Assembly: GCA_001247695.2 (NCBI GenBank)
Contig: LGRX02035123.1
Span: forward strand, 1 to 64,000
Direction of reading: 5' to 3'
From: Cymbomonas tetramitiformis
Taxonomy: Eukaryota; Chlorophyta; Pyramimonadophyceae; Pyramimonadales; Pyramimonadaceae
DNA: 64,000 nt
Shown: in pieces, positions 38,689-57,285 of the stretch
Numbering within the stretch: the first letter of the stretch is position 1
How the letters are laid out: each line of letters begins with the position of its first letter
Program-made: the position numbers and the translations under genes
The notes under the pieces: model-generated
Seen by the model: only the letters and a program-made list of their open reading frames with translations
What the model was told of the DNA's origin: nothing
Databases searched by the model: none

Positions 38689-38742
38689 CTAAGAATATCT
38701 CTCACAGTTTGTCAGAGCCGAACTTGCTGATGTCAAGCATGT

Positions 38743-38748
38743 CTCACT
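38743..38748 (+). other. target-site duplication, left (CTCACT)
   Basis: CTCACT directly before the left terminus ACTACAT, repeated at 57280-57285 directly after the right terminus ATGTAGT. The identity extends two more bases outward on the left (GTCTCACT), so 6 bp is the most parsimonious size and 8 bp is possible. Confidence 0.8.
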
Positions 38749-38862
38749 ACTACATAAGAGGCGTGTAGTGGGGGAGTATTCTTATTATATACACTTGTAT
38801 CTCTTAAGTACCTTATGTATTTGCCAGGATTTCCCAGTATTTCGGAACGCCTCTTATGTAGT
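38749..38862 (+). other. terminal hairpin of left TIR
   Basis: Outer arm ACTACATAAGAGGCGT (38749-38764) is perfectly complementary to inner arm ACGCCTCTTATGTAGT (38847-38862), with an 82-bp loop. The right terminus has the same hairpin with a different stem core; see the corresponding entry at 57165-57279. Confidence 0.9.
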
Positions 38863-38937
38863 GAGTACCTACGGTTATCTACGGCAGAATTGCGTAAGTC
38901 GACACAACGACTGGCTACAATCTATGCTATTGCCGCC

Positions 38938-41264
38938 TTACCTACCACCCATGCCCGCCTTGCATTGCTCGCTTCCCAGCTCGCAACCATATATCAATGG
39001 ATTGATTGTTGTATGTGTTCCGATGTGAGGATATATTACTATAGTATTAATCCCCAATTTGGCAGTGTGGACAATGTAATCCAACCACTGATTCTCTTTG
39101 ATAGATGCATTCTGCGACTTGACCAATGATTGCAATATAGCCACTGAATCCTTTGGCATGCAATCACTTCTCCATATATTAATCGCCAGTTGTGCCAACG
39201 TCAGATAGCTAAATGGGTCAAATTTGTTGTCGGTTATCTTCAGAAAACAATCCCTGAAAGCGAAGACTGCACGGCGTAGAATGGTCACGTCATCATGGCA
39301 ATATCGTGCAATCTCTTTTGGATTTTCAAATATAAAACACTTGTATCTCTTTTCATGCCACCATTGGTACAACTTTTGATAAGCCTCAGGTTGCAGTATC
39401 TCTGGATTATAGTACTTGATATCAGGATATAGACCGATGTATTTCTCATTTTCCAACGTGTTGAAGAGATGTGGATAATACCCTTTTGATATTTCGTTTT
39501 CAAAGCCAAACATCTCTGGCAGAGCATGCAATGGACGTGACATGAACATGTATGAATCAATGAACCTCACGTTGGCAATCTTAACACACAATATATCAGC
39601 CCCTGTGTACAATATATCCTTGGGAGGTTTTCTTTGAACGTTAATAACATGCTCTACTATCAATCTGAAGTCGAACTTGGAACCGCAATGGGCAATGTAT
39701 GTATAACCTGAATGCTTCTCTAAACATGTCCATTCAAGAAACTCGTCTATTGACTTGTGAATGACACTTACACCATTATGATATTGACTCTCGCAGTGGT
39801 TGACGACAAGCTTGCCGCTGTCGTTTCGAGTTTCAAAATCGAAACACACAATTAATTCAGGTGACAGTACGGACTTCGGTTTGACCTGTGTCATGTAGCA
39901 TCTGTGTTCATATAGATTACAAACGACCTTACAATTTGGGCATGCTTTGTATCCACACACGTGTTTCTCCTTAGGATTGAACTTGACATTGCACATCTTA
40001 CATTTGTGAAGCTGATTGCACGTCACCAATTCTTTATGCAAATTGTAACATTCTTCGTTCATGAATTTACGATTGCAAATATCACAATGATGCCATTGCT
40101 TGTTTCCTTTTGTCAACCGTACATCCTTGCTGGCAAATATGCATTTTTGAGATTTGCATTGGGTGCAAGATGGACGATAGGTTTTTCCTCTGAAGCAATC
40201 AATACGCGTGATAGGTTCATAATGATTGTCGTGCAACAATATATGAAAGCTGTCATTATAACTTGAATACTCATTGTGTTCGTTGAAGTACGGCGGGTAA
40301 TACATGATTGGTTCACCGCCAAGTCGTTCAGTGATACCCCACACAAATAAATTTCTGCTGTAATGCCTCTCTAAAACTGGAAAGTCTTCGATATTGATTC
40401 CTTCGTCAGCATCCTTTTTCGCAAACAATTCCAAACGCAATCGAACGGAAACTGATGTTATGTTGCCCTTGTGACCGCTGGCGTCTCGTTTCAGTTGTTT
40501 CCACTTATTCTCGTATTGATTTTTACATACAACATTGTCGCTTAGCATTGTATCTAATTTCCGTTTTCTATCAAGCAGTTCCAAAGATTTGATGCCACAG
40601 TTATTGCGGGATTCAATCTTAATGACACATTGCTTCAGTCGTAATTCTACGGTGTTTTTTGGTGCGGCTAAGCATCGAGACCCCTTGCCTTCTGGTGGTT
40701 TTGAGGAGTAATATTCTACCTCCACATCTTTAGCAACCTCAACCGACTTTTTGCTGCTATCTCCACCCTTAGGACTTTGCAGCATCTCTTCAAACTTCAT
40801 CATCACATCTTGACGGTCGGAACCTTTCACCCATTTGGATGTAGTCCCATCCTCGAAGACCGCTCTCATTGATACTTGCTCAACTCCTTTTGTCTTCTCC
40901 GGTAACCAATAGTTCAGACTGCTACCATCAGGTGCTGCTCTTTGTAAAAACGTTGTGAATGGTACCTTCAACTTCTCAACGTCTGTGCTAAACTTCTTTA
41001 TATGTCTCTTGGAATCTCCAATGCTGTACTTTTGAATCTCATCAAGTCTACTTTGTTCTTTGGCAAGTTTCTTCCCTATCTTGGTCCATTGTCGTCTGGT
41101 AACTTTCTCAACCTTCTCTTTTGATTTCCGATAGTTCTTCTTGTAATCACGTATAGCTTTGGCTCTATCATCACCGGTTAGGTTTCTACTTTGTAAATTT
41201 TCCCAATCGTCGGCTGTAAGCTTATGGCGAGCCTCCGGATTTTTTTTCTTGATTTGGGGGGCAT
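38938..41264 (-). pseudogene. protein-primed DNA polymerase B lacking palm domain
   Basis: Minus strand; frame open from about 41268 to 38938. Residues are numbered from the TTG-initiated 677-codon part (40971). A cysteine/histidine array (about 270-360) of C-X2-C and C2H2-like zinc fingers matches Polinton/Maverick polymerases. Exonuclease motifs follow: Exo I D-F-E at 378-380, Exo II with F-D near 433-434, Exo III Y-C-H-D-D-V near 557-562. The conserved S-X2-A-X3-Q-W-L block before the palm is at 620-630. The polymerase palm and thumb are absent: the gene runs into the terminal inverted repeat at residue ~635 and stops at 38938. The best start, ATG at 41264, is one base out of frame, next to runs of six C and eight A, so a single-base indel or read error there is likely. 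It lies 18 bp after the 41283-41729 gene. Confidence 0.85.
39017..39064. promoter_or_regulatory. 49-bp palindrome P1 (left TIR edge)
   Basis: Starts GTTCCGATGTGAGG and continues through a TACTATAGTA core to TTTGG. The right arm has decayed (GGCA instead of GGAAC). The truncated polymerase gene joins the TIR exactly here. Confidence 0.75.
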
Positions 41265-41282
41265 CTTCCTATACTATACAAA

Positions 41283-41729
41283 TTATATTTTTGTGACGTC
41301 CGCTGCTCGGCGTTTTCTAATCTGCTTTTTCATTCTTTCGCGTTTCTCAATATTAGCTATGGAGTCACGGAATGTCTTTACACCCGTATATTCTGCATTA
41401 GGTCGTTGAAATACTGGGTCACCTGTTATTGTGCCAGTGCTTGTTTGGTCCAAAGGAGCTACCATGATAGGAGCTATCCTACGAGGTGCCTTCGATGGAA
41501 GAGCAGGGTCTTTAATAGGCTGTTGGTAGAGTGGTTGTCCGGTTGGAGTTCCATGGTCTAAAGCTGTTCTATTGGCAGATTTCTTTGTCTTTTTGGCCAC
41601 TGGTCGGCCTCGTAAGCTTTTCAGTCTTTCAGCTTGTGTCATCTTACCGGGCCTCTTTTTAATTCCATGTTCTTCTCTATACTCCTGAGCACATTGCTTC
41701 AATTTTGCAATCCAAGTCTCCTTAGTCAT
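41283..41729 (-). CDS. PLV small basic protein, unknown
   Basis: About 148 residues from the ATG at 41729 (M-T-K-E-T-W); an upstream TTG at 41756 falls inside the P2 palindrome and is not used. The protein is rich in Lys, Arg and Pro with two basic clusters, consistent with a DNA-binding or virion core protein. Charge is the only clue. It reads in the same direction as the polymerase, with an 18-bp gap, and is divergent from the gene at 41850. P2 lies between them and may promote both. Confidence 0.65.
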   Translation of the reverse strand: MTKETWIAKLKQCAQEYREEHGIKKRPGKMTQAERLKSLRGRPVAKKTKKSANRTALDHGTPTGQPLYQQPIKDPALPSKAPRRIAPIMVAPLDQTSTGTITGDPVFQRPNAEYTGVKTFRDSIANIEKRERMKKQIRKRRAADVTKI

Positions 41730-41749
41730 ATAGTATATCTCATATAAAA

Positions 41750-41798
41750 GTTCCAAACTGAGGATTAATATTAGTATATCATATCCTTACTTTAGAAC
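41750..41798. promoter_or_regulatory. 49-bp palindrome P2 between divergent genes
   Basis: GTTCCAAACTGAGG on the left and its imperfect complement ending GAAC on the right, with an AT-rich core. It sits between the minus-strand gene starting at 41729 and the plus-strand gene at 41850, the position expected of a bidirectional promoter. Confidence 0.75.
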
Positions 41799-41849
41799 AC
41801 TAAGTCACATCAAGACATTTATTTTCTTAAGGTATCTTATAGTGACCCA

Positions 41850-42344
41850 ATGCCAGTCAAAGGGCAGAAGATTACCGATAGTGAAACGTTGGAACGTCTC
41901 GCCAAAATGAGAGAGAAAGCTTTAGAGACACGTCGGGCGAAGGCAAAAGTCAAATCTGATTTGAAAATGGCGGAACAACTTAAGGAAAATGAGAAAGTTG
42001 TGGCAGCTCAGGAAACCATTAAGAAAGCTGCAACTACGATTAAACCGGAACCGCAGCCAGAATCGGACCCTGAACCTGAGGTTGAACACGTCGTTGTTAA
42101 AAAACCTAAGGCACCTAAAAAGAAACCCAAGAAGCAGGTAGTAATAGTTGAATCTGATAGTTCTGAATCAGAAGAAGAACCAGAGGTCATTGTTAGGAAG
42201 TCCACACGGCGTAAGCAAAGCCGAGTTGCATCGGACCCGGGGACAATCGAAGATTGTTCCTTTTCACCTCCACCTCGTAAGAAAGATGCAGAATTACATC
42301 CTCATTACGACAAAGCGTACAACAGTCTATTTCTATCGTTATAG
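41850..42344 (+). CDS. PLV charged protein, unknown
   Basis: 164 residues starting with ATG 50 bp after palindrome P2. N-terminal helical K/E/R-rich segment, then an acidic/Pro stretch (residues ~65-80), a K-K-P-K cluster (~85-100), a serine/glutamate acidic run (~105-120) and a basic patch. This alternation of acidic and basic low-complexity blocks suggests a disordered nucleic-acid-associated protein. The stop is three bases before the ATPase start, so the two are likely co-transcribed. Confidence 0.7.
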   Translation: MPVKGQKITDSETLERLAKMREKALETRRAKAKVKSDLKMAEQLKENEKVVAAQETIKKAATTIKPEPQPESDPEPEVEHVVVKKPKAPKKKPKKQVVIVESDSSESEEEPEVIVRKSTRRKQSRVASDPGTIEDCSFSPPPRKKDAELHPHYDKAYNSLFLSL

Positions 42345-42347
42345 TAT

Positions 42348-42710
42348 ATGCAGTTTCAAAGACTGAAAGATAAATCATATGATATTCAAGTGCCAAAGAG
42401 TTCAGCGTTTCCAATTGACACACCCGATGATTTTATTCAATTGCACGGGGTCATATTAGCGTGTGCAAAGCGTGGCACGGGAAAATCATGTAGTCTTACA
42501 CACCTACTTCGATTGATGAAACAGAACAATGCTTTAGACAGACTTATTCTTGTATCACCAACTTATCACAACAATATGCATTACTATAATGACCTGCCAC
42601 TCGATCAGTCAGATGTATTAGAGCCTACTGTCGATGTTCCAAATCAGATTGAAGGCATTCTTGATACCGAAGCTCAAGAGTACGATGAATATCAAGAGAA
42701 AATGGAACGG
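42348..42710 (+). pseudogene. packaging ATPase, N-terminal part (interrupted)
   Basis: First 121 codons of an FtsK/HerA-type (poxvirus A32-like) DNA-packaging ATPase, the enzyme that pumps the genome into the capsid. The Walker A motif G-T-G-K-S is at residues 43-47 inside A-C-A-K-R-G-T-G-K-S. The gene is cut after ATGGAACGG by a foldback transposon at 42711-44373 and resumes at 44385. The open frame continues about ten codons into the transposon before a stop. Confidence 0.88.
42700..42710 (+). other. 11-bp target duplication, left
   Basis: AAATGGAACGG, repeated at 44374-44384 on the far side of the inserted element. Removing one copy with the element keeps the ATPase in frame. Confidence 0.7.
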
Positions 42711-44373
42711 GAAAAGGTTTATTTTAGATTAAGTTTTTGACATCTACTGGATTAAGTTTTGTCTGGGGTAGATTTAGATTAAGTTCATGTGACACGATCG
42801 ATCGAGAGGTCATCAGACCTGAGACAGGTCGTCATCGTCATTTCGCCGGATCCGAGGTGCCACCGCTCCGAGGTCAGGCGCACATGGTAAAACTGCGAAC
42901 GGAAGGTCAAAGGCAAAGGGAAAGGCAAAGGGTGTAAGATTTAGCGGCAGTAGGAATAGTTTTCAGAAGCATATGAAAAGTATTCTAGTGCTTCTGAAAA
43001 CTATTCCTACGTCTTCTATATCATAAACCCTTTGCCTTGCCTTTTTACCTCTGCACGCGACCGGCAAGCATATTTCAAACTTCCGAGTTTCAAATATGCG
43101 TTTTGTATTTTGGGTGCACCCTAATTTTACAAAACGGCCGAGCGCTTCCCGTTTGTGCGGGATATTCACATTTATTTCATGGAATATTTCACATGGTTTA
43201 ACACACATGCACACGCATGGGAAACCCTCGGCTGTTTGGCATTTTTGGGTTTGGGTTCGAACCCAAACCCAAACCCAAAACATCTGCCTTAGAAATAAAT
43301 TGCGCGTTTCGCGTACAAGTAACTTGAAGCTTTGAGCTTCAGGTAACTTAAAGATTTGTATCTTGGCAGTATTTGTGCCAAGTTTCGCGCTCTAGGACGC
43401 ACGGGAAGCCCTCGGCTGTTTGGCATCTTTGGGTTTGGGTGTCACGTTCGAACCCAAACCCAAAACATCTGCCTTAGAAATAAATTGCGCGTTGGGCGCA
43501 CAAGTAACTTGAAGCTTTGAGCTTCAAGTAACTTAGGTAAATATCTCTTGGCAGTATTTGCGCCAAGTTTCGTGCGCTAGGACGCACGGGAAGCCCTCGG
43601 CTGTTTGGCATCTTTGGGTTTGGATACGTTCGAACCCAAAGGCAAAGGCATAGGACAGTTTCGTAGATTCTGTCCCGATGCCTTTGCAACCTCGCACGCT
43701 AACTCATATTATAATGAATATTTAACATTCAAGCGTTGGATACCCCACGCCAACGGGAAGCGCTCGGCTGATTTGTTATTTGGGTATGCGCACCCAAATG
43801 ACAAAAACGCATCTTTGAAACTCGTTAGTTTCAAAGATGCGTGGCCGATGCCTTCGTGCTTATGTGTATATTTCATATGAAATATACCGTGGAATAAATG
43901 TGAATATCCCGCACAAACGGGAAGCGCTCGGCTGTTTTGTAATTTTAGGGTGCACCCAAAATACCAAACGCATCTTTGAAACTTCCGAGTTTCAAAGATG
44001 CTTGCCGGTCGCGTGCAGCGGTAAATGTCAAGGCAAAGGGTTTATGATATATAATAAGTAGTTTTTAGAAGCAATAGAATATTTTTCATATGCTTCTGAA
44101 AACTATTCCCCAGCATGCAAGCATGCAACCTGCTCTCGGCACCATGCGGCACCATGCAACCTGCCTTCCCAGCATGCATGCTGCCCTCCGCTCGGCAGCA
44201 TGCAATGTGTTGATGTGATTTCGCCGGAAATTTCCGGCGAAGAGACGATGACGACCTGTCTCAGGTCTGATGACCTCTCGATCGATCGTGTCACATGAAC
44301 TTAATCTAAATCTACCCAAACAAAACTTAATCCAGTAGATGTCAAAAACTTAATCCAACATAAACCCCGAGCC
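42711..44373. mobile_element. foldback hairpin-array element, copy B, in the ATPase
   Basis: 1663 bp. The ends carry inverted GGTTTAT followed by inverted GATTAAGTTTTTGACATCTA and a further ~90 bp of inverted match reaching the GATCGATCGAGAGGTCATCA and GACGATGACGACC segments. The interior is a chain of hairpins: perfect 20-bp arms at 42952-42971/42989-43008, a stem at 43068-43080/43087-43099, two ~186-bp tandem units, then inverted copies of the same modules. The 11-bp duplication and long inverted repeats are what Mutator-like (MULE) elements make. No transposase. A short insert of GCATGC-rich sequence (44109-44215) sits near the right end. Confidence 0.8.
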
Positions 44374-44384
44374 AAATGGAACGG

Positions 44385-44942
44385 TATAAGAAGCTTATGA
44401 AGATGTTAAACAACCACAACATCAGTGTGTATGAGATTCCGGGTGAATTGCTATTGGAATTTGGAGATGAGAATGGTAACATTCTTCCTCCGCAACACAA
44501 GTATGGTGGCAAACGGCCAGTAATCGCCGCCTTCTTTGATGATACACAAGACACCGACATGATGAGACCATCGAGTAAGCTCAGCAACATGGTTATCAAA
44601 CATAGACATCTTGGAAAGCTTAAGGACGGGGCCCTTGGAGTGACATTGTTGTTTGCAACTCAGAATTATACCTCAAGCTCAGGAGGCTTGCTAAAATCAA
44701 TAAGAGGTAACCTAACACATATGTTAGTCTTCCGAAATAAGAATAAAAAAGAGATTGATAAAATAGGGGAGGAGGTCGGAGGGGAGATTCCAATCGAGGA
44801 ATTCAACTCGGTATACAATCAGGCTATACAAGGGCCTCATGATTTCCTGTTTATTGACCTGCATCGGAAACCGAGTCATTTAAGTATGTTCAGAAGGAAT
44901 TTCAACGAGTGGATTCTTCCCGCTCAAACTCTACAATCATAA
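44385..44942 (+). pseudogene. packaging ATPase, C-terminal part
   Basis: Continuation of the ATPase after the insertion (frame from 44374). The Walker B-like strand P-V-I-A-A-F-F-D-D-T-Q-D is at codons 48-59 of the 44376 frame, followed by a segment ending in F-A-T-Q-N, which fits the Gln/Asn sensor of the FtsK/HerA group, and a C-terminal helical region. With the insertion removed the full protein would be about 306 residues, a normal length for this family. Stop at 44942, 8 bp from the convergent gene end at 44951. Confidence 0.85.
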
Positions 44943-44950
44943 ACTTTAGA

Positions 44951-45247
44951 CTATTTTTCAGCGTTTGACCTTACTTTATAAAATTTTATCAGTTTGTCAA
45001 CGTAATTGACAACTTCATCGGTCACACAACAACACTCGTCATCATAATGGGAAGGGTCATCTGGCGGACAATTATAAGGCAATGCAATAAGTTTTTCAAG
45101 AATCTCCTGGGTGTCTACGTGTGTCGAACCTTCATCTGCATATATTTCCTTTACAATATAATCATGCGCTAGTTCGACTTGTTTGTTGACCGTAAGTTCA
45201 CCGAGAATAAGTGTCTTGAGAATATTCATTTTTGTTTCGGTATCCAT
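44951..45247 (-). CDS. PLV small protein, unknown
   Basis: 98 residues, acidic and predicted helical, with a cysteine cluster (E-C-C-C-V) at residues ~73-77. ATG at 45247 is 53 bp from palindrome P3, which also precedes the methyltransferase on the other strand. Its stop lies 8 bp from the ATPase stop (convergent). No family recognised. Confidence 0.65.
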   Translation of the reverse strand: MDTETKMNILKTLILGELTVNKQVELAHDYIVKEIYADEGSTHVDTQEILEKLIALPYNCPPDDPSHYDDECCCVTDEVVNYVDKLIKFYKVRSNAEK

Positions 45248-45300
45248 TCTTACTTATGTTAGAATTGAAATCTTTAAGTAGTGTTGTATGTCTATAGACC

Positions 45301-45350
45301 GTTCCAAACTGAGGATTAAATATACTATATTATAATCTGAGTTTAGAACA
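45301..45350. promoter_or_regulatory. 50-bp palindrome P3 abutting methyltransferase ATG
   Basis: GTTCCAAACTGAGG ... TTTAGAACA, an imperfect palindrome of the P family with AT-rich centre. It ends one base before the ATG at 45351 and lies between divergent genes (45247 minus, 45351 plus). This would give the methyltransferase almost no leader if transcription starts inside it. Confidence 0.75.
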
Positions 45351-45980
45351 ATGAATATCTTAGAGCTATTCTCCGGCACGGCATCGGTCAGCAAAGTACT
45401 TAAAGAACTGTACGAAAATTGCGAAATCGTATCGGTTGACATATTGCCGGGTTACAGCCCGACTCATGCAGTCGACATCTTGACCTGGGAATATACCGTG
45501 TATCCACCAAAGCACTTTGAGATAATCTGGGCATCTCCGCCATGCACCGAGTATAGTAAGGCAAAGAGACGTAGCCCACGGAATCTAGCCTTGGCTGATA
45601 GTATAGTCGAGAGAACATTGCAAATCATTGACTACTTCAAACCTACGTATTGGTACGTCGAGAACCCCGCTGATGGTGGCTTGATGAAACATAGACCGGT
45701 GATGCAACATATGAACAAATACATACACACGTGTTGCTATTGTCGATATGGTTTTGAGTATAGAAAGGCGACAAACATTTGGACTAATAGACCTGGACTA
45801 AACCTAAAGATGTGTTACAAACACAGCACACCGTGTCAATCAATGGAATTGTATGGGAAGCATATGAAGTCGGCTCAATATGGCCGAAGCTCGTGTGCAA
45901 AGCATGGAGTAGGCAGGGGTAAGGCTGAAAATGCTTTTAGTATACCTCGTGAATTAATTATTAGTCTTGTGCCAAAGTGA
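45351..45980 (+). CDS. C5 cytosine DNA methyltransferase
   Basis: 209 residues. Motif I L-E-L-F-S-G-T at 4-10 (AdoMet binding), motif IV A-S-P-P-C-T-E-Y-S at 61-69 with catalytic Cys65, motif VI V-E-N-P at 103-106, and a late K-A-T-N-I-W-T block equivalent to the motif VIII/X region. This is the short, phage/virus-type Dcm family enzyme, transferring a methyl group to C5 of cytosine in DNA. All key residues seen are intact, and unlike the other large PLV genes it is unbroken. ATG fixed by the adjoining P3 palindrome; the stop lies within palindrome P4. Confidence 0.9.
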   Translation: MNILELFSGTASVSKVLKELYENCEIVSVDILPGYSPTHAVDILTWEYTVYPPKHFEIIWASPPCTEYSKAKRRSPRNLALADSIVERTLQIIDYFKPTYWYVENPADGGLMKHRPVMQHMNKYIHTCCYCRYGFEYRKATNIWTNRPGLNLKMCYKHSTPCQSMELYGKHMKSAQYGRSSCAKHGVGRGKAENAFSIPRELIISLVPK

Positions 45981-46017
45981 AGATATATTATTATAGTATT
46001 AATCCTTAATTTGGAAC
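45971..46017. promoter_or_regulatory. palindrome P4 between convergent genes
   Basis: GCCAAAGTGAAGATAT ... AATTTGGAAC with core TATTATAGTATT. It overlaps the last codons and stop of the methyltransferase (45978-45980) and ends 2 bp before the stop of the primase-helicase gene (46019). This position suggests a terminator or shared processing hairpin, unlike P2 and P3. Confidence 0.7.
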
Positions 46018-46018
46018 T

Positions 46019-46552
46019 TTAAAATACTATTGGGTGTATCTTTCTTGATACTAAATGGTCCCACAGCTCAACACATTTCCTTGACTTTTTCTCTTCTTCA
46101 GATTCTTCATCGTCAATGAATTGGTACTCTCCATTGAACAATCCATACTCCTTAAACAGGCTGGGTGACCGAAATTCTAGTAATTGTCTTTGTTCTTCTA
46201 AGAACTCAGGTTCCACCGTATACACATATCCTAACTTCTCTTTGCTCCTCTTCCTCTTTCCGATTGTGAACCCGTCTCCGAACAATGCATGGTACATCTT
46301 ATTTAGCATTGCATTGCATTGCAACTCCGTTGTCAAGTCAAAATCTTTTCCGGTCTTGCTAAAGATTTGTTTGTACTTCTTGTTGAACTCTTCGCTTTCC
46401 TCCGGTGTCAATGCTCTTTGTGCATCGATGACACACTTGTCCTCGATTCCAACTAGTTCTTGAAGTTCTTTGAGTAACAATATTCTCATATTGGTACATG
46501 TTACTATGTTCACCACGAAATCATCGGCACTTTGTACTCTTTCATACATATG
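46019..46552 (-). pseudogene. primase-helicase, C-terminal part (split by PLE)
   Basis: About 178 codons that continue the 51969-54218 gene on the minus strand after the Penelope-like insertion. Joining at the duplicated ATG gives an uninterrupted frame (the His of ...W-L-H followed by M-Y-E-R-V). The segment is helical and basic with K-R-K-R-S-K-E-K and an acidic E-E-S-E-E-E-K-K run near the end. It has no catalytic motif itself. Its upstream ATG-led frame inside the pLTR is an artefact of the insertion. Confidence 0.75.
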
Positions 46553-46556
46553 CTCT

Positions 46557-47367
46557 CTGGGTCTGCACTGGTGGGGAGGAAAATGAGGGGCCTTCGGGCC
46601 GTTGCACTGGGGTTGGTTTATTGTTTGACACACCGGCGATGAGCTTGTGTACTTATGGGATGGTTTCAACTTTCTTCTTTTCTGTGAAATTTCGACTGTC
46701 TTACAAAGTCGTGGGAGTTTTTTTAGACTTTATTACGTGAGACACGGGGTATTGCTGCTTGCATGAGTATGGCGCACCTTATCCCTACCAGTTTGTATTA
46801 CACACTCGTGGAAGAAAATCAGAACTTTTTACGTAAGACATATGACATATTTCTCGGTCTTGTTATTCTGGTGACACCCTTGCTGCATATTGGGGACCTT
46901 TGGGCATCGAGACTTCTGGACCATGACGGCTTTTGCCTGAGAACTACCAGTTTTCTTGAAGTGTTTATCTGGGGTATATTCCCTCTACCTGTGACGGTAT
47001 ATTTGGACAAGTGACAGTCAGCTTTTGTTATTTTTGTACCCAACAGTAGTGGGCTCCTCGTGCTTATAAGGTGTCCGATCTGGACTAGTTTTCTAGTCTC
47101 TGCAAAGCTCACTGATGAGGTCTATGGTTTGACCGAAAAGCTTATGAGTAGCCAGCAAGCTCCGGTATTTTATCGTTATTACACAGCAGTATTATTTTGG
47201 TTTATACATTATTATCAGTGCTGACTTATCAAAGAGTGCATCTCAAGTTACTTGTTTTATCACTTGCTTGTTTTCGAGCCGGCACTCGGTCGTATCTGTT
47301 TTTGACCACACTACTACGTGCATATTTCGAGCACATACCGTATATACGCGAAAGTTTTTGATTATAA
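46557..47367 (+). repeat. pLTR, left copy
   Basis: 811-bp direct repeat starting CTGGGTCTGCACTGG and ending GATTATAA, offset 4600-4601 bp from the right copy. It contains an 83-codon frame (46763-47014), duplicated in the other copy, that I do not consider a gene. Confidence 0.92.
47108..47148 (+). ncRNA. hammerhead ribozyme (left pLTR)
   Basis: The catalytic core CTGATGA (47112-47118) is followed by stem II GGTC/GACC with loop TATGGTTT, then GAAA (47135-47138). Stem I is CTCA (47108-47111) paired with TGAG (47145-47148). Stem III is the self-complementary AAGCTT, which cannot close as a monomer hairpin but suits a dimeric hammerhead, as described for Penelope-like elements. The predicted cleavage is after A47144. 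It would self-cut tandem or full-length transcripts at the pLTR. Confidence 0.85.
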
Positions 47368-47539
47368 CTTTTATTTACAGCAGTCACAGGGACGTTTTTC
47401 TTACGATTGACCCACGACGCTGATTACAGATCCAGCGGGCTATCACCAGCATAGGTACCGGATCGAGAACTCTTTGGTTACGTACAGAGAGGGACACTTG
47501 GACAACACTCTATTTTACATATTTACTTTACTGTTTTAC

Positions 47540-48838: not shown

Positions 48839-51061
48839 CAGGGAGGCAACTGGCGGCGACGATTGTACAGGGTGAAGAATTTACTGTACCTTGTAATGGA
48901 AGTGCTGGATGAAGTCGTCGCTGGATGCACAGGGGATGGGGGTGGGGGACAGTTGGATCTCGCGGTTCGGCTGTCGATGTTTGGGTCTTTGGTTTTCTTG
49001 GAATGGGCTGCGTTGCAGCCGAGGTGGTGGCTGCGGAGATTCCTACCATGGTGGAATTGTTTGAGTGCTGAGGAGCTGAAGAGGTGGTTTTCGGGGGATG
49101 TGCGCTACGGGACATATGTGCTGGCGTCTGTAAGATCCCGCCGCACCTACGTCGGGAAGTTCTGGAGCGGACCGCGGGAAAGGATGCTGGCACACCTGAA
49201 GACTGCCCTGGACCCGTCTAGACGAGGGGGGAGACGCCTGTATGGTGGCCTGCGGGCGCGTGGGGTGCACTGTTTTTTCATGCTGCCACTGAAGACTTAC
49301 GGGGGTAAAGGCGACTGCGACGCCGACGAGAAGGTTATTATCAGGCGAACTCAGAAGCCTGCTGACTCTTTGAACACGGTCGGCGTTTGGCGGCGCAGGG
49401 TGACACCCGGTCGCGAACGTTATAGGAAGGCGCGACAGCTGGAGCGACGGTCGAGACGTCGAGGGGGAGGTCGGCGCAACATGCGGGACAGGGCGCGAGG
49501 CGCAGGGGCAGCTGCGAAGCAGATGGTGTACGGAGGAGCGGCGGTACAGGGCTATAACGGGGGAGCGCTGCATCTTGCACTTCGGAGGTTGGTGAAGGGT
49601 GAGACAGTCCGCGAGTCTTCGTGGGACTTGCAGTGGCACGTGGGGCAGTGGAACTTCACTGACTGGACTTGCGTGAAGTTGAAGTATGGGAGGTCGCGGG
49701 TGGAAGTTGTGGGGGGAGGTTCGGACGGTTTGCGGAGTTCACTGCGCGAGCTTATTCCGTTGCTCAAGCGGAGTAATGCCAGGTTGAAGTTCACACGGAT
49801 TGAGGTCACTGAGTCAGATCTCTGGGCACAGCGGGAGGTCAAACAGTTGGTGCGCAGACCGGCGAAGGCGTGGAAGCGGGTCCCTAAGTATGCTCTCGAC
49901 AGGATGGTTCGCCTCTGGCAGGCTGCAGCGTCAGTGGTTGGGAAGCAGCAGCTCCCTAGGATCAGGACGTCACTCTCTGCGATTGCGAAGCGGGCACACG
50001 ATTTTGTTTTCAGAGCGACCTATATTTGTAAGGTCCCTTTTCCAGACGGCTTGAACACAGCAGTGCTACGGGATTTTCTTCTGCAATGCGTTGACGCTAA
50101 GTACCCGGAGGGCGCGACAAGATCTTTTGTTCGACGGCGTACTAGTGTGGTAAGAACAGCGAAGCAGAAAGTGCATGACTTATTCTGTAACCTTTCTTCT
50201 GTTTCACTGTGCGTTGATGATGCTGAGTGTAACTGCCACAGAGCCGACCCGAGCCTGCCACGACGCAATGGACACGTTTGCTTTCGGACGATCGAGCTGG
50301 ATGGGGAGTTCGCAGCTTTTAACCGCAGCCTTAAAGACACTCCGCGTCACTCTGTGGGCACGCCTGATTTTTTACTGACCAGCACTTCTGATTTTCTTCG
50401 ACAGTTTCGCAGTGGTATCGGTATTGGCGGCGGCGCAAGTCCGGGCTTGGCACAGAGTGTGTGTGTCTTTGGCGAGATGCAATGGACTTTATCCCTTGGT
50501 GCGGACCGGCGGCTGGCTGGTGCGAAGATCCTTGGCACCCGACTGATGGACGATTGCACGCTGCTGGTGGCTTGGGACTGTGGCGGAGATGCTGCGAAGC
50601 GGGAGGCGATGAGGAGGATCTTCACCGGCTATTTGGAGTCTTGCTACCCCGACGGTATGACGGTTGAGTTGACCTCTGACGGGCTCACTTGGGTGTTTTG
50701 TGGTATGCAGCTGACCGTTGACTCTGGCGGGGTGAGCACGAAAATGGTGACAAAGAATGTTCAGGCTGGTGTGGCGGGTGATGCGGGCTTACTCTTTTTC
50801 CCGTTTGTCTCCTTCTACTCAGATTGCAGCAGAGTCCAGAAAATGGCGAGTACCGTTAATGCTCTTTACCGTGTGGACAGGCACTGCTCAAATGACGGCT
50901 TGAAGGCAGCAGCCGTGATTGATGTGTACCGTGAGCTTCGGTGGCAGGGTTGCCCACGGGGTTGGCTGTTCGAGGCACTGGAGAGGATGGTGTCCCGGAC
51001 CCCGGAAGGGTTCTGGCACCGCCTCCGTAGGCGGATGGAGAAAGGCGGTCTCCGGCTGTGA
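48839..51061 (+). CDS. PLE ORF2: GIY-YIG endonuclease plus reverse transcriptase
   Basis: Frame continuous with ORF1 after its TGA; the first ATG is at 48896 (M-E-V-L-D-E). Residues are numbered from 48863. GIY-YIG domain: G-T-Y at 83-85, Y-V-G at 96-98, catalytic-type Glu156 in D-E-K-V-I-I, Asn171. An Arg-rich linker (175-215) follows, then a Cys/His cluster (450-472). RT motif B is G-I-G-I-G-G-G-A-S-P-G at 518-528 and the catalytic M-D-D at 562-564. I cannot place a convincing RT motif A with its Asp upstream of motif B, so an internal loss is possible. Copies RNA to DNA at a nicked target. Confidence 0.8.
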   Translation, partial: QGGNWRRRLYRVKNLLYLVMEVLDEVVAGCTGDGGGGQLDLAVRLSMFGSLVFLEWAALQPRWWLRRFLPWWNCLSAEELKRWFSGDVRYGTYVLASVRSRRTYVGKFWSGPRERMLAHLKTALDPSRRGGRRLYGGLRARGVHCFFMLPLKTYGGKGDCDADEKVIIRRTQKPADSLNTVGVWRRRVTPGRERYRKARQLERRSRRRGGGRRNMRDRARGAGAAAKQMVYGGAAVQGYNGGALHLALRRLVKGETVRESSWDLQWHVGQWNFTDWTCVKLKYGRSRVEVVGGGSDGLRSSLRELIPLLKRSNARLKFTRIEVTESDLWAQREVKQLVRRPAKAWKRVPKYALDRMVRLWQAAASVVGKQQLPRIRTSLSAIAKRAHDFVFRATYICKVPFPDGLNTAVLRDFLLQCVDAKYPEGATRSFVRRRTSVVRTAKQKVHDLFCNLSSVSLCVDDAECNCHRADPSLPRRNGHVCFRTIELDGEFAAFNRSLKDTPRHSVGTPDFLLTSTSDFLRQFRSGIGIGGGASPGLAQSVCVFGEMQWTLSLGADRRLAGAKILGTRLMDDCTLLVAWDCGGDAAKREAMRRIFTGYLESCYPDGMTVELTSDGLTWVFCGMQLTVDSGGVSTKMVTKNVQAGVAGDAGLLFFPFVSFYSDCSRVQKMASTVNALYRVDRHCSNDGLKAAAVIDVYRELRWQGCPRGWLFEALERMVSRTPEGFWHRLRRRMEKGGLRL

Positions 51062-51156
51062 AGATTGGCAGTAAAGAAATGAGTGTTGGAAATGGAAGGA
51101 CAACAGGGGCAGACACAGGGTGGAGGGGTGGCACGGCGATGGAAATGGGGGCGGTG

Positions 51157-51968
51157 CTGGGTCTGCACTGGTGGGGAGGAAAATGAGGGGCCTTCGGGCC
51201 GTTGCACTGGGGTTGGTTTATTGTTTGACACACCGGCGATGAGCTTGTGTACTTATGGGATGGTTTCAACTTTCTTCTTTTCTGTGAAATTTCGACTGTC
51301 TTACAAAGTCGTGGGAGTTTTTTTAGACTTTATTACGTGAGACACGGGGTATCGCTGCTTGCATGAGTATGGCGCACCTTATCCCTACCAGTTTGTATTA
51401 CACACTCGTGGAAGAAAATCAGAACTTTTTACGTAAGACATATGACATATTTCTCGGTCTTGTTATTCTGGTGACACCCTTGCTGCATATTGGGGACCTT
51501 TGGGCATCGAGACTTCTGGACCATGACGGCTTTTGCCTGAGAACTACCAGTTTTCTTGAAGTGTTTATTTGGGGTATATTCCCTCTACCTGTGACGGTAT
51601 ATTTGGACAAGTGACAGTCAGCTTTTTGTTATTTTTGTACCCAACAGTAGTGGGCTCCTCGTGCTTATAAGGTGTCCGATCTGGACTAGTTTTCTAGTCT
51701 CTGCAAAGCTCACTGATGAGGTCTATGGTTTGACCGAAAAGCTTATGAGTAGCCAGCAAGCTCCGGTATTTTATCGTTATTACACAGCAGTATTATTTTG
51801 GTTTATACATTATTATCAGTGCTGACTTATCAAAGAGTGCATCTCAAGTTACTTGTTTTATCACTTGCTTGTTTTCGAGCCGGCACTCGGTCGTATCTGT
51901 TTTTGACCACACTACTACGTGCATATTTCGAGCACATACCGTATATACGCGAAAGTTTTTGATTATAA
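51157..51968 (+). repeat. pLTR, right copy
   Basis: 812-bp direct repeat, identical to 46557-47367 except for a 1-bp insertion in a T run near 51625 and two or so substitutions. Ends GATTATAA against viral coding sequence at 51969. Confidence 0.92.
51709..51749 (+). ncRNA. hammerhead ribozyme (right pLTR)
   Basis: Identical copy of the motif at 47108-47148: CTGATGA at 51713-51719, stem II GGTC/GACC, GAAA, palindromic AAGCTT stem III, CTCA/TGAG stem I. Both copies are intact, so a transcript of the whole element could be cut at both repeats. Confidence 0.85.
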
Positions 51969-54218
51969 ATGTAGCCAAAAGTGCTTCGAAGCCGCAAAGT
52001 GTTTCTTTAATTCATAGTCCTTTGTGTAGTACTTTCTATATGTGTTCAAATGCTCCTTTGGTACTTGCAATATCTCATGAATTCTCGACCACTTTTCACA
52101 ACCTTCAGGGTCAAAGTCCTTAGCAAGGTCGTCCTCAGCGTCCTCCCATTTTGTTCTTTTATTCTTCACATAAGGAAACTCGAACACAAAGCCTTGTTCT
52201 TGCATGATTTGGATGAAGTGAGCAAACTTGTTTGTGCTATAACATTGCTTCTCGTAAATGTACTCGACTAGAAAGTCAAAGTACTCTTCATTCAATACTT
52301 TTGGTACTAATGGATTGTCGAAAAGGTCGTATCCAAACTGATTGGTATCTTTGTAAGCCTGTCTCACTTGTTCAAGAGTAAAAGGGTTGCACTTATACCT
52401 TTTACCATAGAAGAAGATGTACACCTCCGTGATGTTTCTTTCACGTTGAATTTGTTGACTCATACCAAGAGGGTCGATTGTATGTTCTTTGTAATAACCA
52501 AATACGGGTCTCATTTTGTCATTGTTGCTATCTATACCATACATAACTTTTGGGCTGAATATGATTCTTGGAGTTGTGTTAAAATCGGGTAACTTGTCGG
52601 TCTCTTCGGTTATTACTACTACATCGGGATGATGCACTATCAAATACTTGTGCAACTTTTTGGCGATATCTTTAGAGTCACATGCAACTATGTACCCGTT
52701 TGGTTGTGATTTTATTAATTCCCTAAATTGATGCTCACTTTGAATTTCTTTTATCTTCACTCCATCATAATGGTTTTGTTTATTACGTATGTATGTGTAT
52801 GGTTTGTTCACTAAATTCATATATTTCATGCATCGGTCACTTATATCGCCGTCAACCGCTATGTAGTTCTTGCAATCATTCAATACTTGTTTCAATCTGA
52901 CCCACACATCGACCCGCCTAGCGTTCAATGTCTCACTACCAATCACGTGCTTCAATAGTGAATTGAACTCATCGATAAATATTGTGTACCCACTCAGGTC
53001 CATTCTTCTTAACTTTATCAAGCTATCGACTTGTATTATGATGTTATCTCCATCTTGGATGTCCTCCGACTCGACATTCTTGTAAAATGTGCATTCAAGG
53101 CCGCTCTCATTAAAGGTTTGGTGTATTGTTTCTCCCAAAGTCACTCTCGAAACTATGACTATAAAATTAAGGTTGTTGTGAGCAATATGGTCCCTTACAC
53201 TTGTAGTTTTGGACGTTCCGGGTTTGGATTTCATTATGCACGATTTACCAACCTCATAGATGTCTTCACCTCTAGTTTTTTGAAGGTACTTCCGATTCCA
53301 AATCACATGTGGCTTGATGGTATTCTTGGGTGTCGGTTTCATTTTGTGATAATCAATGATGTTCTCATTCCTAGATAAGAGCCACCCGATGGCATCAAAG
53401 TCGCCATTGGGTTTACATGAATTCCAAGTTTGATTGTTGGTATCTTGGTGATAGTTAGGTTTAGTCTTGCAAAATGCATCCCACTTGTCATATTGGTTCA
53501 ATCCTTTCATGGCGGTGGTGAATTTGAAAAAATCTCCGAAATTATCGATGATATTGTTAGGCAACATGTCCATTATACTATCAATGTTCTTATTGCTTAA
53601 GTTGTAATGCACGTCTCCTTCATATTCAAATTCCTTTTTAGGTTTAACTTCATACTTTCCGGTCTTTTCATTTTTTTGTGAGCTGGATGTGTAAATGTGT
53701 TCAAACAAGAATTGCTTTAAGTTTTCGGGTATCGGCTTGATGGATGTGTCGTGGTATACGGTGTAATCCTTATGAATGATGTTCTTTTTGATATTATATA
53801 TGTGTGAATGAGGTGCCACAATGTATGTTCCATTGCTCAACACATCAATCCCTATCGAGCTATTCTTCTTGTCGGCGAAGTCATCGTCATACAAAAAATA
53901 CAAATGATAACCTCCACTACATGTTTTGACGGTGTATGTATCAAACTTCCTAAGAGCTTGTCCGAACTTTTTCACCCAAGGATGTGTTTTCAAATCCCAC
54001 TTGTGTGAGTCCAAATCAACCACAATGATGTTGTTCACTTTGCCTCCAAAGAGACCAACGTTGTAGGATTTACAAGATTCAATTCCAATAAATTGAACAT
54101 TCTTATCGTTGTAAAAGTTGGACGTCATTGGTTCTTTCGAGTTTTTCCATAACTTGTGCTTAACCATGTTTTTGAGAACGAGAGTGTCATCATAAGAAGG
54201 ATTGCATTGCATAGCCAT
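51969..54218 (-). pseudogene. primase-helicase (AEP plus origin-binding-type helicase), N-terminal part
   Basis: About 750 codons from ATG at 54218. The N-terminal primase-polymerase domain has V-V-D-L-D (Asp68, Asp70), S-G-G-Y-H-L-Y-F (His105) and the I-G-I-D-V...Y-I-V-A-P-H-S block (122-138). The C-terminal superfamily 2-type helicase resembles the herpesvirus origin-binding (UL9-like) family: Walker A S-K-P-G-T-S-K-T-T at 331-339, Walker B F-I-D-E-F at 414-418, motif VI Q-Q-I-Q-R-E-R-N at 588-595. It would prime and unwind DNA for viral replication. The gene is cut by the Penelope-like element after residue ~750 and continues at 46552-46019; the rejoined length is about 930 residues. Confidence 0.85.
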
Positions 54219-54285
54219 GGTTTCTTATATATAGTCACAACTCTTTTCTTTAAGTAGTTGATATAGTCACACGAAACAAAAAAAT

Positions 54286-54471
54286 CTATACATGCGAGAT
54301 TTTTTCTGCACACTTTTTTAGCCTATATGCTTCTCGTTTTTTGGCATTTATCTCGTTCTTATGTAAGGCATAATAAGTTTGAGAACTTTTCCTTGAAATT
54401 TCCCTAGATTTGTCAACATGTCTCTCTCTATACCGTTTTTGGGCTAACTTCAAGGTTTCGCTGCGAGCCAT
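54286..54471 (-). CDS. PLV very small basic protein
   Basis: 61 residues, ATG at 54471, upstream of and co-directional with the primase-helicase (67-bp gap). Very rich in Lys, Arg, Glu and Ser with Y-R-E-R-H and K-K-R-E-A-Y-R-L-K-K segments; predicted to be one or two charged helices, perhaps DNA binding. No family recognised. Palindrome P6 lies 44 bp upstream of its start. Confidence 0.55.
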   Translation of the reverse strand: MARSETLKLAQKRYRERHVDKSREISRKSSQTYYALHKNEINAKKREAYRLKKCAEKISHV

Positions 54472-54514
54472 ACTAATATATACATTGAAGATAAGCCTTA
54501 AATCGATTATCTAT

Positions 54515-54563
54515 GTTCCAAAGTAAGGATATAATAGTCTAATATTAAACCCTGGTTTGGAAC
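54515..54563. promoter_or_regulatory. 49-bp palindrome P6
   Basis: GTTCCAAAGTAAGGATAT ... CCCTGGTTTGGAAC. It lies 44 bp upstream of the 54471 start and is the likely promoter of the small basic protein and the primase-helicase. A related copy follows at 54665. Confidence 0.7.
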
Positions 54564-54664
54564 AAGGGGTGTAAGGTCGAAAATCGCAAAAAAAATTGAG
54601 CAAGATGTCAAAAATCGCAAAAAGTTGAGCCCGACGTTTTTTGGCCCCAAAATGACCGATATAG

Positions 54665-54714
54665 TGTTCCAATGTGAGGTTATATTACTATAGTATTAAG
54701 CCCTGGTTCGGAAC
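54665..54714. promoter_or_regulatory. 50-bp palindrome P7
   Basis: GTTCCAATGTGAGG ... CCCTGGTTCGGAAC with core TACTATAGTA. No gene start follows on the right; between P6 and P7 runs a short repeated AT-rich sequence (AAAATTGAGC type). Confidence 0.7.
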
Positions 54715-54824
54715 AAATGGTGTAAGGTCAAACATGATCGAAAAACTCAAAAAATGACCCTAAAATGTCAAAATCTCAAAAAATTGAGCCGGAGATTTAA
54801 AACCCTAAATGGCCCATATGGGTT

Positions 54825-54877
54825 TGTCATAAAGTGGAACTTAATATTACTATATACATGAATCTCACTTTATGACA
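54825..54877. promoter_or_regulatory. 53-bp palindrome P8, second arm type
   Basis: TGTCATAAAGTGGAACT ... TCTCACTTTATGACA. Same length and an ATTACTATATA-type centre as the GTTCC copies, but entirely different arms that still pair with each other. Confidence 0.7.
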
Positions 54878-55119
54878 CCCGCGAAAAATACTGCCAAAAA
54901 ATGGGCGAAAACAGAGCCTTAAAACGTCAAAAACTGCAGCCTGCAGATCGCGAAATTTCTCTACCTTTTTTTCAGAGTGAAAAAATCCCAAAACACAAAA
55001 TCGCGAAAAAAACACTCCCGATTTTTTTAAAATCCTTGTCATCTCCGACGTCTAAATTATCTCATCCACGTCGTCATCTACGATCTGACCCCGTCATCAC
55101 CTTTGTGATGACCCAGGTC

Positions 55120-55375
55120 GTCATTTACTGGTCACGTTGCCGGCCATTTCTTTCAATGCCGGTCACCTACTGGTCATAAGATTGATTTACACATCATCAG
55201 AACGTGCGGCACTGATCGCGATCACCAGAACGTGACCAGTAGGTGACCGGCACTTTTCGCGATCATCCAGAACGTGACCAGTAGGTGATCGGCACTGATC
55301 GCGATCATGCAGAACGTGACCAGTAGGTGACCGGCACTGACAGAGGTGGTCGGTGACGTGACCAGTAGGTAATGA
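55120..55375 (+). repeat. 42-bp iteron array with internal palindromes
   Basis: CAGAACGTGACCAGTAGGTG at 55226, 55268 and 55310 (42-bp period), with partial copies at about 55198 and 55363. Units contain GATCGCGATCA palindromes. Inverted partial copies (ACCTACTGGTCA) lie just upstream at 55125-55175, so the array is flanked by an inverted repeat. It lies in the gene-free right third, behind the primase-helicase. Confidence 0.85.
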
Positions 55376-55389
55376 CGTGGGTGATCGCA

Positions 55390-56515
55390 AAGGTCGTATA
55401 TGTCACGATATGTGTCATGGTCGCCAAATATAAATTTGAAACTCGCTAAAAATTAGAAATTTAAAGTTGTATAAAATTGAAAATTTAAATTTAAATAAAT
55501 TTGATTTAAATGCAAATTTTGTATAAAGAGAATTTCAGGAAGTTATATTTTGAATATATTTATATCAAATTATGATTATATATATTTTTAATATTGTTGA
55601 TATTTATGCTAACAAGAAATAGTAATAAATCGTATAAATTCAAATCTCGCTAAAATTTTGATAATTAAATTTGTATAAATTTGAAATATATACATGAACA
55701 ATTTTGATTTAAATTAACATTTTGTAAAAAAGGGAAAGTCAGGTCGTTATTTTATATATATATAAATTTATACCAAGTTCTGAATATATATTTATATATT
55801 TATAATTTCAATGGATGATTATTCAAATGAAATATCTTGCCAGATATAACCGTATATTAAAAAAATATTCCCACCAAAAAATTAAATATATACTTGCAGA
55901 AATATCAAAATTTTATTTTGAGACAAATTGCGAAATTTTATCTATATCGCAGAAAGATATAAATTTGAGGTACGCCGATTCCATATAAATATAAACATTT
56001 ATACCATTGCCCATTCTAAATACATATAATTACTATATACATTTACATATACAGAATTACTATAAACTTATATTTCATTATTAATACAAAGTGTAAACAA
56101 CGTCAAACGCGAAATATTTATTTCATTATCATTTCCCCCAAAATTATATATTATACCAGACTTATTTTAAACCACAAGATATCTACACAAATCTGACGAT
56201 TTACAATTTTATCCAGCACGCGGAATTAAAATAGCAAAACTAAATCGCCCGAACGAATCAGAGGGAGGCATCGTCTGAAATTAGCAAAATAATGCCAAAA
56301 TAAATGCAAACGGTGTGTAAAAAATGAAAAATAAATCATGCACACTTTCACCGTATCGGGCACACGTCCGTTGGTAAAATACACGTTTTAGGGTTGCCTA
56401 TCTTATGTTTCAACGATGAAAAGCGAAGTATACACTTGAATAATCTATCATAAACGACTCCCCCAAAAATTCTGTGTCGCCATGAAGATATCGGAAGAGA
56501 AAAAGGAATCAAGTT
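55390..56515. other. AT-rich gene-free region of the PLV
   Basis: More than 1.1 kb of strongly AT-rich DNA with many short A/T runs and no frame above about 40 codons. This is where capsid genes might once have lain, or a natural non-coding segment; nothing else is visible. Confidence 0.6.
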
Positions 56516-56516
56516 T

Positions 56517-56569
56517 TGTCATAAAGAGAAACTTAAAATTACTATATACACCATTCTCAGTTTATGACA
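56517..56569. promoter_or_regulatory. 53-bp palindrome P9, second arm type
   Basis: TGTCATAAAGAGAAACTT ... TTCTCAGTTTATGACA. A 70-codon frame (56482-56694) overlaps it and is probably a chance frame. Confidence 0.7.
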
Positions 56570-56748
56570 AGGATCGCGATCGCAAAAAAAGCATGAAACG
56601 CCAAAAGCAACAAAAGGAACAATTGGAGACCGGAAAGATTGTTGCCGATATTTTAGGTAACCATTGCCTCACTTTTTCAATAAATCACAACTAATTTCAA
56701 ATTGCACTGTGAGGAAAAATCCCAGATCAATCTACACAAATTCATAGT

Positions 56749-56801
56749 TGTCACAAACAGAAACTTATATTTACTATAATACTACTTCTCTAATTATGAC
56801 A
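56749..56801. promoter_or_regulatory. 53-bp palindrome P10, second arm type, decayed
   Basis: TTGTCACAAACAGAAACTT ... TTCTCTAATTATGACA with a TTTACTATAATAC centre. The arms are partly mismatched. Confidence 0.6.
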
Positions 56802-56840
56802 AGGATCGTGGTGTCGGCTTATGCAGATCTGCCATAGGAT

Positions 56841-56889
56841 GTTCCAAACCGGGGATTAATACTATAGTAATATATCCTCACATCGGAAC
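56841..56889. promoter_or_regulatory. 49-bp palindrome P11
   Basis: GTTCCAAACCGGGG ... CACATCGGAAC, identical to P12. It is preceded by TTATGCAGATCTGCCATAG, a stretch that also occurs inside the right TIR (57130-57150), so a piece of the TIR seems duplicated here. Confidence 0.75.
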
Positions 56890-56971
56890 ACATAACACAC
56901 AAGAGCGGGTTGTCACAGATTTCCAGAAACACAATTTCAGATATTGTCGCAGAATTCCAGAAAATTCTAAT

Positions 56972-57020
56972 GTTCCAAACCGGGGATTAATACTATAGTA
57001 ATATATCCTCACATCGGAAC
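56972..57020. promoter_or_regulatory. 49-bp palindrome P12 (right TIR edge)
   Basis: GTTCCAAACCGGGGATTAAT ... CTCACATCGGAAC with core TACTATAGTA. It is the intact counterpart of P1. Confidence 0.75.
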
Positions 57021-57164
57021 ACATACGACAATCACACAATGACATATGTTTGCGAGCTGGGGAGCGAGCAATGCAAGGCGGGCAGGGGCTGGTAAGTAGG
57101 CGGTATTGTACGAAGATCGCGGTGTCGACTTATGCAGATCTGCCATAGATAACCGTAGGTACTC

Positions 57165-57279
57165 ACTACATGGGTAGCGTTCCGAAATACTGGTAAATCC
57201 TGGCAAAATGCAGAAGGTACTTAAGGAATACAGTTGTATTTAATAAGGATACTCCCCCTCTACACGCTACCCATGTAGT
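57165..57279 (-). other. terminal hairpin of right TIR
   Basis: Inner arm ACTACATGGGTAGCGT (57165-57180) pairs perfectly with outer arm ACGCTACCCATGTAGT (57264-57279). Relative to the left hairpin four stem bases differ, and all four are matched by changes in the partner arm. Confidence 0.9.
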
Positions 57280-57285
57280 CTCACT
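57280..57285 (+). other. target-site duplication, right (CTCACT)
   Basis: Direct repeat of 38743-38748. Confidence 0.8.

Follow-up and report, generated by a model that had tools for sequence, protein, structure and literature searches.

The window analysed here is a 64,000-nucleotide stretch of Cymbomonas tetramitiformis DNA (contig LGRX02035123.1, positions 1 to 64,000), which carries one copy of a polinton-like element flanked by terminal inverted repeats (TIRs) at 38749–39062 and 56975–57279. A first-pass annotation of this stretch had described a family of ~49-bp palindromes that marks nearly every gene junction of the element. Comparing the window with its relatives, we find short near-palindromes at fixed borders between gene groups of polinton-like viruses (PLVs), with lineage-specific arms that still pair; as read from the sequence, this pattern argues for a genuine control element of putative function.

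Both TIRs are delimited by the inverted repeats I3, I5, I6 and I11, and the innermost ~50 bp of the left one is the palindrome at 39016. Between them lie a truncated PolB gene (39061–41259, minus strand; residues 3–735 of a 1294-amino-acid (aa) relative, located by tblastn with the L039 PolB and matching DNA_pol_B_2 at 4e-13), the small gene P2 upstream of it (41283–41729, minus), P3 (41850–42344, plus), a packaging-ATPase-like gene named by context (42348–44942, plus), the small gene sX (44951–45247, minus), a C5 DNA methyltransferase-like gene (MTase; 45351–45980, plus; PF00145 at 5.7e-4, under the curated cut-off), a Prim-Pol/helicase gene (46019–54218, minus; Prim-Pol 1.4e-9, Herpes_ori_bp 2.8e-7) and, before the latter, a small basic open reading frame (ORF) of 61 aa (54286–54471, minus). 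In a Pfam search of nine element proteins, PolB matched at 1.1e-38 and rve at 4.9e-7, under its cut-off (30.4 versus 32.6 bits); that search gave no identification for the ATPase and capsid genes, and the packaging-ATPase-like gene of the window has no Pfam match above the cut-off.

The window copy is damaged: the ATPase-like and helicase genes are each split, and PolB ends early, near residue 735 of 1294. At about codon 735 PolB is joined to the inner arm of the 39016 palindrome, and the window copy therefore lacks the C-terminal half of PolB and whatever lies beyond it in relatives. The ATPase-like gene is interrupted by a DNA transposon with inverted ends (42716–44366), and related hairpin sequence occurs at 25911–27395. 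Inside the helicase gene lies a long terminal repeat (LTR)-like element (about 46557–51960) with direct repeats at 46557/51157 and 47023/51624; it carries ORFs of 454 and 732 aa, the longer of which has no Pfam match at 0.01. Open helicase frames of 930–932 aa are present in many relatives. Since at least 60 helicase and at least 36 PolB matches are found in the genome among those scored, the palindrome family can be compared over many copies.

All eleven reported palindromes are present within about 3 nt of where they had been placed and can be aligned end to end over ~50 bp; the proposed division into two arm types also holds, with eight type I copies (GTTCC-type arms) and three type II copies (GTCAT-type arms). 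Type I copies lie in the inner part of the left TIR (39016–39066; 68.3 bits), between the divergent P2 and P3 genes (41749–41799; 62.5 bits; 19 and 50 nt from their respective ATGs), between the divergent sX and MTase genes (45300–45350; 50.7 bits; adjoining the MTase ATG), between the convergent MTase and helicase genes (45968–46018; 64.4 bits; overlapping the MTase stop and touching the helicase stop), 42 nt before the 61-aa ORF (54514–54564; 65.8 bits), second in an array upstream of the helicase gene (54665–54715; 69.5 bits), next to the right TIR (56840–56890; 75.3 bits) and at the inner end of that TIR (56971–57021; 75.3 bits). Type II copies occupy 54824–54877, where other copies of the element have type I, 56516–56569 and 56748–56801, all provisionally on the plus strand. 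The matrix built from the eight type I copies scores those copies at 50.7–75.3 bits, and every remaining window match above 8 bits is a reverse reading of the same sites (maximum 25.8 bits). Placement at both TIR edges, as first described, stands in so far as palindromes mark both ends of the element; the copies at 39016 and 56971, however, lie inside the TIRs.

Among the seven internal junctions of the window copy, the family occupies three (P2/P3, sX/MTase and MTase/helicase), together with the helicase upstream region and both ends, so that "nearly every" junction was too strong. The PolB/P2, P3/ATPase, ATPase/sX and helicase/small ORF junctions lack it; the ATPase/sX junction holds an inverted repeat of unrelated sequence (11 of 16 pairs, with 6 of 200 shuffles as good). 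In two less damaged elements, C450 and C20652, palindromes lie 5′ of the helicase unit, between the helicase and MTase genes, at the MTase start, between P3 and P2, after PolB, after g452 and toward the element ends, and none of the family is found at P2/PolB, P3/ATPase, g437/g206 or g206/g452. In L070, which covers the block after g452, two matrices detect palindromes only near the end; the 614/178 interval carries an inverted repeat of other sequence (13/16 pairs, 2/200 shuffles as good), and the other seven of the eight intervals are ordinary in the outer-arm test (45 to 199 of 200 shuffles as good). Just past a palindrome, a DUF5754-like small gene (match under the cut-off) is present at L039:6164-6442 and cleanly absent at L041:6390-6425. 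The palindromes 5′ of the helicase gene (window 54564–54825; L019:850-1205) are separated by ~100-bp spacers with a recurring TTTTTGCGATTTTTGAC, giving a tandem unit of ~150 bp.

The family thus sits, as had been stated, between divergent genes (P2/P3) as well as convergent ones (MTase/helicase). A bidirectional promoter, in which the AT-rich core starts transcription both ways, would suit the divergent P2/P3 and sX/MTase sites, the MTase ATG that adjoins its palindrome, the likeness of the type I core to the AT-rich sequence before many ATGs, and the fact that the same side faces the start in three one-directional cases (the helicase array, L041 g437 and the L041 gene after g452). Against it, a palindrome lies at the helicase stop in 21 copies and faces a convergent MTase in six annotated copies and the window. 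AT-rich sequence directly precedes many of 19 start codons whether or not a palindrome is near, and the palindrome therefore does not generally look like a core promoter. Genes that lack a palindrome may carry a motif of their own: a strict TATAGTA-like motif occurs within ~40 nt of 5/19 ATGs, compared with 0.16 in random windows whose AT content was unmatched, and at P3/P2 the AT-rich stretches before both ATGs lie, by eye, outside the exchanged palindrome. We consider a bidirectional promoter improbable.

The sites are near-palindromes with incomplete symmetry. The type I layout runs from a B-side GTTCCAAAC..GGATTAATA through an AT core to an A-side TATCCTCAC..GGAACA, whereas type II has its outer arms switched to GTCAT/ATGAC and has an inner AAAG/CTTT-like sequence that is shared. 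Among the 47 distinct sequences of type I, C-C is commonest at arm column 10 and C-A at column 11 (29/47 each), and 46/47 have T-T at column 18 and A-A at column 19; because these arm columns are asymmetric, type I sites are directional. Window copies read plus at 41750, 45301, 56841 and 56972 and minus at 39017, 45971, 54515 and 54665; the direction of type II, set by a single alignment with a hand-set strand, is less sure. Each window copy taken alone is only a modest inverted repeat, with pairing equalled in 6/200 (41750), 23/200 (45301), 33/200 (45971) and 7/200 (54515) shuffles of its own junction. Hairpin scans miss real palindromes with inner mismatches (such as those of L043, L052 and L062), and junctions were therefore scored by an outer-arm test with 200 shuffles. 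The TACTATAGTA core was rejected as a signal by itself, since it is enriched neither in the window (20 sites with up to 2 mismatches versus 15.5 expected) nor in the genome (1134 exact sites versus 1737 for the reversed control).

Hairpins that, as in Mimiviridae, fold in the transcript and set mRNA 3′-end cleavage or polyadenylation would explain why stops lie in or beside palindromes at the MTase, helicase, PolB and g452 genes, and why in L008 four copies begin about 17–58 nt past stop codons that close ORFs of 90 aa or more; pairing is also kept while arm families vary, and the folds are stable (z of -1.5 to -4.8 for nine window strands representing eight palindromes, and -7.6 for L043). 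The P3/P2 and sX/MTase palindromes, however, lie between start codons with no gene end nearby, and the eight type I copies share a sequence alignable over ~50 bp, unlike the mimivirus signal. The prevalence of C-C and C-A at two arm columns also speaks against RNA pairing, as does the absence of an RNA-sense bias: G-T and A-C pairs number 71 and 75 in the 47 sequences, and G-U is not in excess. Rfam gives no match at the gathering score in 38700–57300. We regard 3′-end hairpins as unlikely. A promoter by itself leaves the convergent site unexplained and a terminator hairpin by itself leaves the divergent sites unexplained; of the functions first suggested (promoter, terminator hairpin, recombination site), none fits all sites, and a regulatory signal is what holds up best.

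The positions are fixed across copies. Of 29 helicase loci, 4 were left out of the 3′ count; the other 25 combine an open frame above 900 aa with enough 3′ flank, and every one of them (25/25) has a palindrome no further than 150 nt from the helicase stop. Enough 5′ flank is available at 27 loci, and our script finds a palindrome at the same place upstream of the gene in 26/27; the sole miss, L010, is an artefact, since an internal stop in its helicase frame displaces the measured start while its palindromes are at the usual places. Identity between distinct sequences is 0.869 within a site (56 pairs) and 0.766 between sites (244 pairs), which argues that sites are inherited in place.

While the sites stay, their arms change. 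Types I and II replace each other at two fixed sites. The one 5′ of the helicase, whose flanks are partly conserved, has type I arms in L019, L017 and L015, whereas L022, L026, L027 and the window have type II there; the other, the MTase start, is type I in L011–L014 and others. The six copies checked with GTCAT arms at the MTase start (L022, L026, L027, L028, L030 and L036; 13/16 pairs, 1–6/200 shuffles as good) are also type II 5′ of the helicase. At the P3/P2 site, the same place carries GTTCC arms in L039, L058 and L060, GTTTCC arms in L041, GGATTCCTTGCCAA arms in L043, GGTGGCAGATT arms in L051, L057, L052 and L062, and yet another arm type in L055. One representative for each of the four families (L055 left out) pairs with its own arm at 13, 10, 16 and 16 of 16 positions, whereas cross pairing reaches 2–5/16 and left arms are identical at 2–5/16. 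Compared with shuffles of their junctions, L043, L051, L052 and L062 pair at 16/16 and stand out (0/200 each), while L039 (13/16, 3/200) and L055 (7/200) are fairly distinct. Paired changes occur in the GGTGGCAG family at pair 16 (A-T or G-C) and pair 19 (T-A, C-G or, once, a C-A intermediate); at pairs 11–14 mismatches are uncompensated. By our reading, the P3/P2 site and the PolB end share an arm family in 6/10 elements (C450, C2355, C17006, C2057, C9589 and C3891).

Palindromes recur in other PLV-like contigs. C23029 and C7898 are distant copies with a helicase of 56% identity, and in the latter (L068) a TGTCCC-armed palindrome lies 5′ of the gene (14/16 pairs, 1/200 shuffles). In L042 (C23029), a ~21-nt palindrome (GCAACATTC-AAA-GAATGTTGC) lies inside a boundary palindrome at 4740-4760, and a variant stands in frame after a start codon at about 9903-9928 of L039 and is absent from the same codons at L041:9792; this short sequence looks mobile. 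Helicase relatives in public data reach down to about 23% identity among the matches listed. Queried singly against IMG/VR, neither the helicase nor the PolB of the window gave a match, and an alignment query retrieved four metagenomic loci: L008, with four intergenic copies, one of them reversed, of its own ~55-bp quasi-palindrome; L007, with at least two copies of a quasi-palindrome of another type; and the nearly identical L005 and L006, with one AT-rich inverted repeat. The IMG/VR loci L048 and L049, exact matches to the type I half-pattern, were rejected: by matrix neither holds a complete palindrome of type I or II, and nothing in them matches the element's proteins.

A search of the genome (851.7 Mb in 25,745 contigs) with a 29-position pattern allowing one mismatch gave 349 + 362 = 711 matches versus 0 + 0 for the reversed pattern, so the family is not a chance occurrence. 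The first-pass annotation had proposed such a motif search and had named scatter through host DNA as the outcome that would make the palindrome a miniature inverted-repeat transposable element (MITE). The sampled copies speak for the first-pass reading: at 9/9 loci (L002 and L072–L079), picked from the listed places and not at random, the sequence past the palindrome matches element DNA over 399–2947 nt. Four of the nine also hold other DNA, L074, L076 and L079 at element ends and L072 partly. On this sample a host MITE is rejected, since all nine copies are located within virus DNA or at its edge. Selfish repeats akin to repetitive extragenic palindromes or MITEs, spreading within PLVs into tolerated borders, are a different proposal; they would account for hundreds of copies that are alike within an element and unlike between lineages, and find an echo in the short palindrome nested in the L042 boundary palindrome and inserted in frame in L039 and not L041. 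Yet each site retains its own variant across copies, the six copies without type I at the MTase start have another palindrome there, and the site stays while the arms change; such spread is therefore doubtful as the origin of the family.

The inverted boxes around an AT core, the Herpes_ori_bp match of the helicase and the arrays at the element ends and 5′ of the helicase gene are reminiscent of origin-like palindromes, such as the herpesvirus oriS, on which a Prim-Pol/origin-binding-protein-like helicase would act. The many dispersed copies at unit borders do not fit such replication sites, and polinton polymerases of this kind start at element ends; we hold this role to be very unlikely. The earlier suggestion of a recombination site fares no better. 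In two rearrangements, a single breakpoint falls in a palindrome. One is the inversion of the N6-MTase/helicase block against PolB in type B copies (L045 and L017 versus L044 and L019), whose first breakpoint is inside the helicase-end palindrome at the arm/core edge; the other is the PolB deletion in the window, where PolB now meets a TIR palindrome at its outer edge. These events, together with the gain or loss of the DUF5754-like gene that begins 4 nt past a palindrome, would favour sites that move gene blocks in the manner of integron attC or lox. However, the partner breakpoints lie in unrelated, non-palindromic sequence (the second inversion breakpoint is 110 nt from the nearest palindrome, and AAGGAT is shared at the inversion), which leaves site-specific recombination unsupported; both events fit ordinary breakage of hairpin-prone sequence. 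The palindromes are fragile, and a recombination function seems highly improbable.

We tentatively favour, at somewhat less than even odds, the reading that the palindromes are boundary/operator elements of the polinton-like virus. They would be dyad-symmetric, oriented sites of ~49–75 bp, with an AT-rich core and complementary arms, that lie between transcription units and are bound by a putative trans-acting protein, most likely virus-encoded. Between divergent units such a site would govern how nearby core promoters initiate; where units end, in convergent or tandem order, it would halt or insulate elongation, like the operators and stoperators of mycobacteriophages. The sites may also have a part in silencing integrated copies. 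Transcription units are here read from strand and spacing, not from RNA. Because divergent starts, convergent ends and some tandem borders all carry sites, and because sites resemble one another within an element and differ between lineages by paired re-coding, the dyad may be read by a dimeric or structure-reading factor. Many related sites are strung along one element, some near start codons, where promoters are presumed, and some not.

Several observations weigh against boundary/operator elements. Type I arm pairing averages only 10.8/17 over the 47 sequences, with 145 other mismatches. At P3/P2, L041 (61/200) and L058 (48/200) do not beat shuffles; neither do the L039 PolB end (136/200) nor the palindromes seen by eye in L042 at helicase/MTase (126/200) and the MTase start (181/200). 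P3/P2 and PolB-end families differ in 4/10 elements (C20652, C21871, C161 and C4052), and the window mixes two arm types, which one specific repressor would not predict. The ATPase/sX and DUF5754/g437 borders lack the family and are exceptions to a simple border rule, the fold z-scores mean that an RNA role may exist, and the copies are related, so their counts are not independent.

An extension of the boundary/operator reading, which we consider speculative and rather improbable, is that each PLV lineage may encode a regulator specific for its own arm family, by which PLVs of the same type, whether co-resident or incoming, would be silenced. If true, such immunity operators would be a eukaryotic-virus counterpart of phage superinfection immunity, and arm swaps would mark changes of immunity group. 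The palindromes offer a concrete handle on how PLV transcription units are defined and how the elements stay silent in host genomes: in a Cymbomonas study, transcripts are reported from only 66 loci, and most such elements are called transcriptionally silent (PMC10675990). A recurrent border element with changing yet complementary arms also provides a tag by which PLV lineages can be told apart and helps to place unit borders in the absence of RNA data. In the open-access literature, with subscription papers and preprints outside the coverage and sources consulted in part, no description of such palindromes was recognised for PLVs or virophages; the main text of PMC10675990 has no occurrence of "hairpin", "promoter" or "motif", and PMC12220804 none of "hairpin", "promoter", "palindrom" or "terminator".

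Known systems share parts of this arrangement, as far as the consulted portions of the reports describe them. Halovirus HF2 has two classes of intergenic repeat with AT-rich motifs at conserved genomic positions, but these are archaeal, measure 58 and 29 bp and are shown promoters, and palindromic arms go unmentioned in the portions consulted (PMC8707807). The Mimiviridae hairpin polyadenylation signal places palindromes at gene ends with sequence free to change; it has no nucleotide-level conservation and sits at transcript ends (PMC4402537), whereas the PLV palindromes share their sequence within an element and also occur at divergent starts. The immediate-early motif of Medusavirus is a 24-bp palindrome ~40–70 bp before start codons of a eukaryotic DNA virus, which is found in 22/115 divergent and 0/88 convergent regions (PMC8557863); in PLVs, by contrast, the convergent helicase/MTase site is conserved (window and six annotated copies). 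The stoperators of Cluster A mycobacteriophages also form many related sites per virus genome, a minority of them at promoters, with one orientation prevailing and a motif that differs between lineages (PMC6550527, PMC9283540). Stoperators are 13 bp, asymmetric and bound by a known repressor in bacteria (PMC6550527), whereas the PLV sites are dyads of 49–75 bp with a putative binder and arm types that are mixed within an element.

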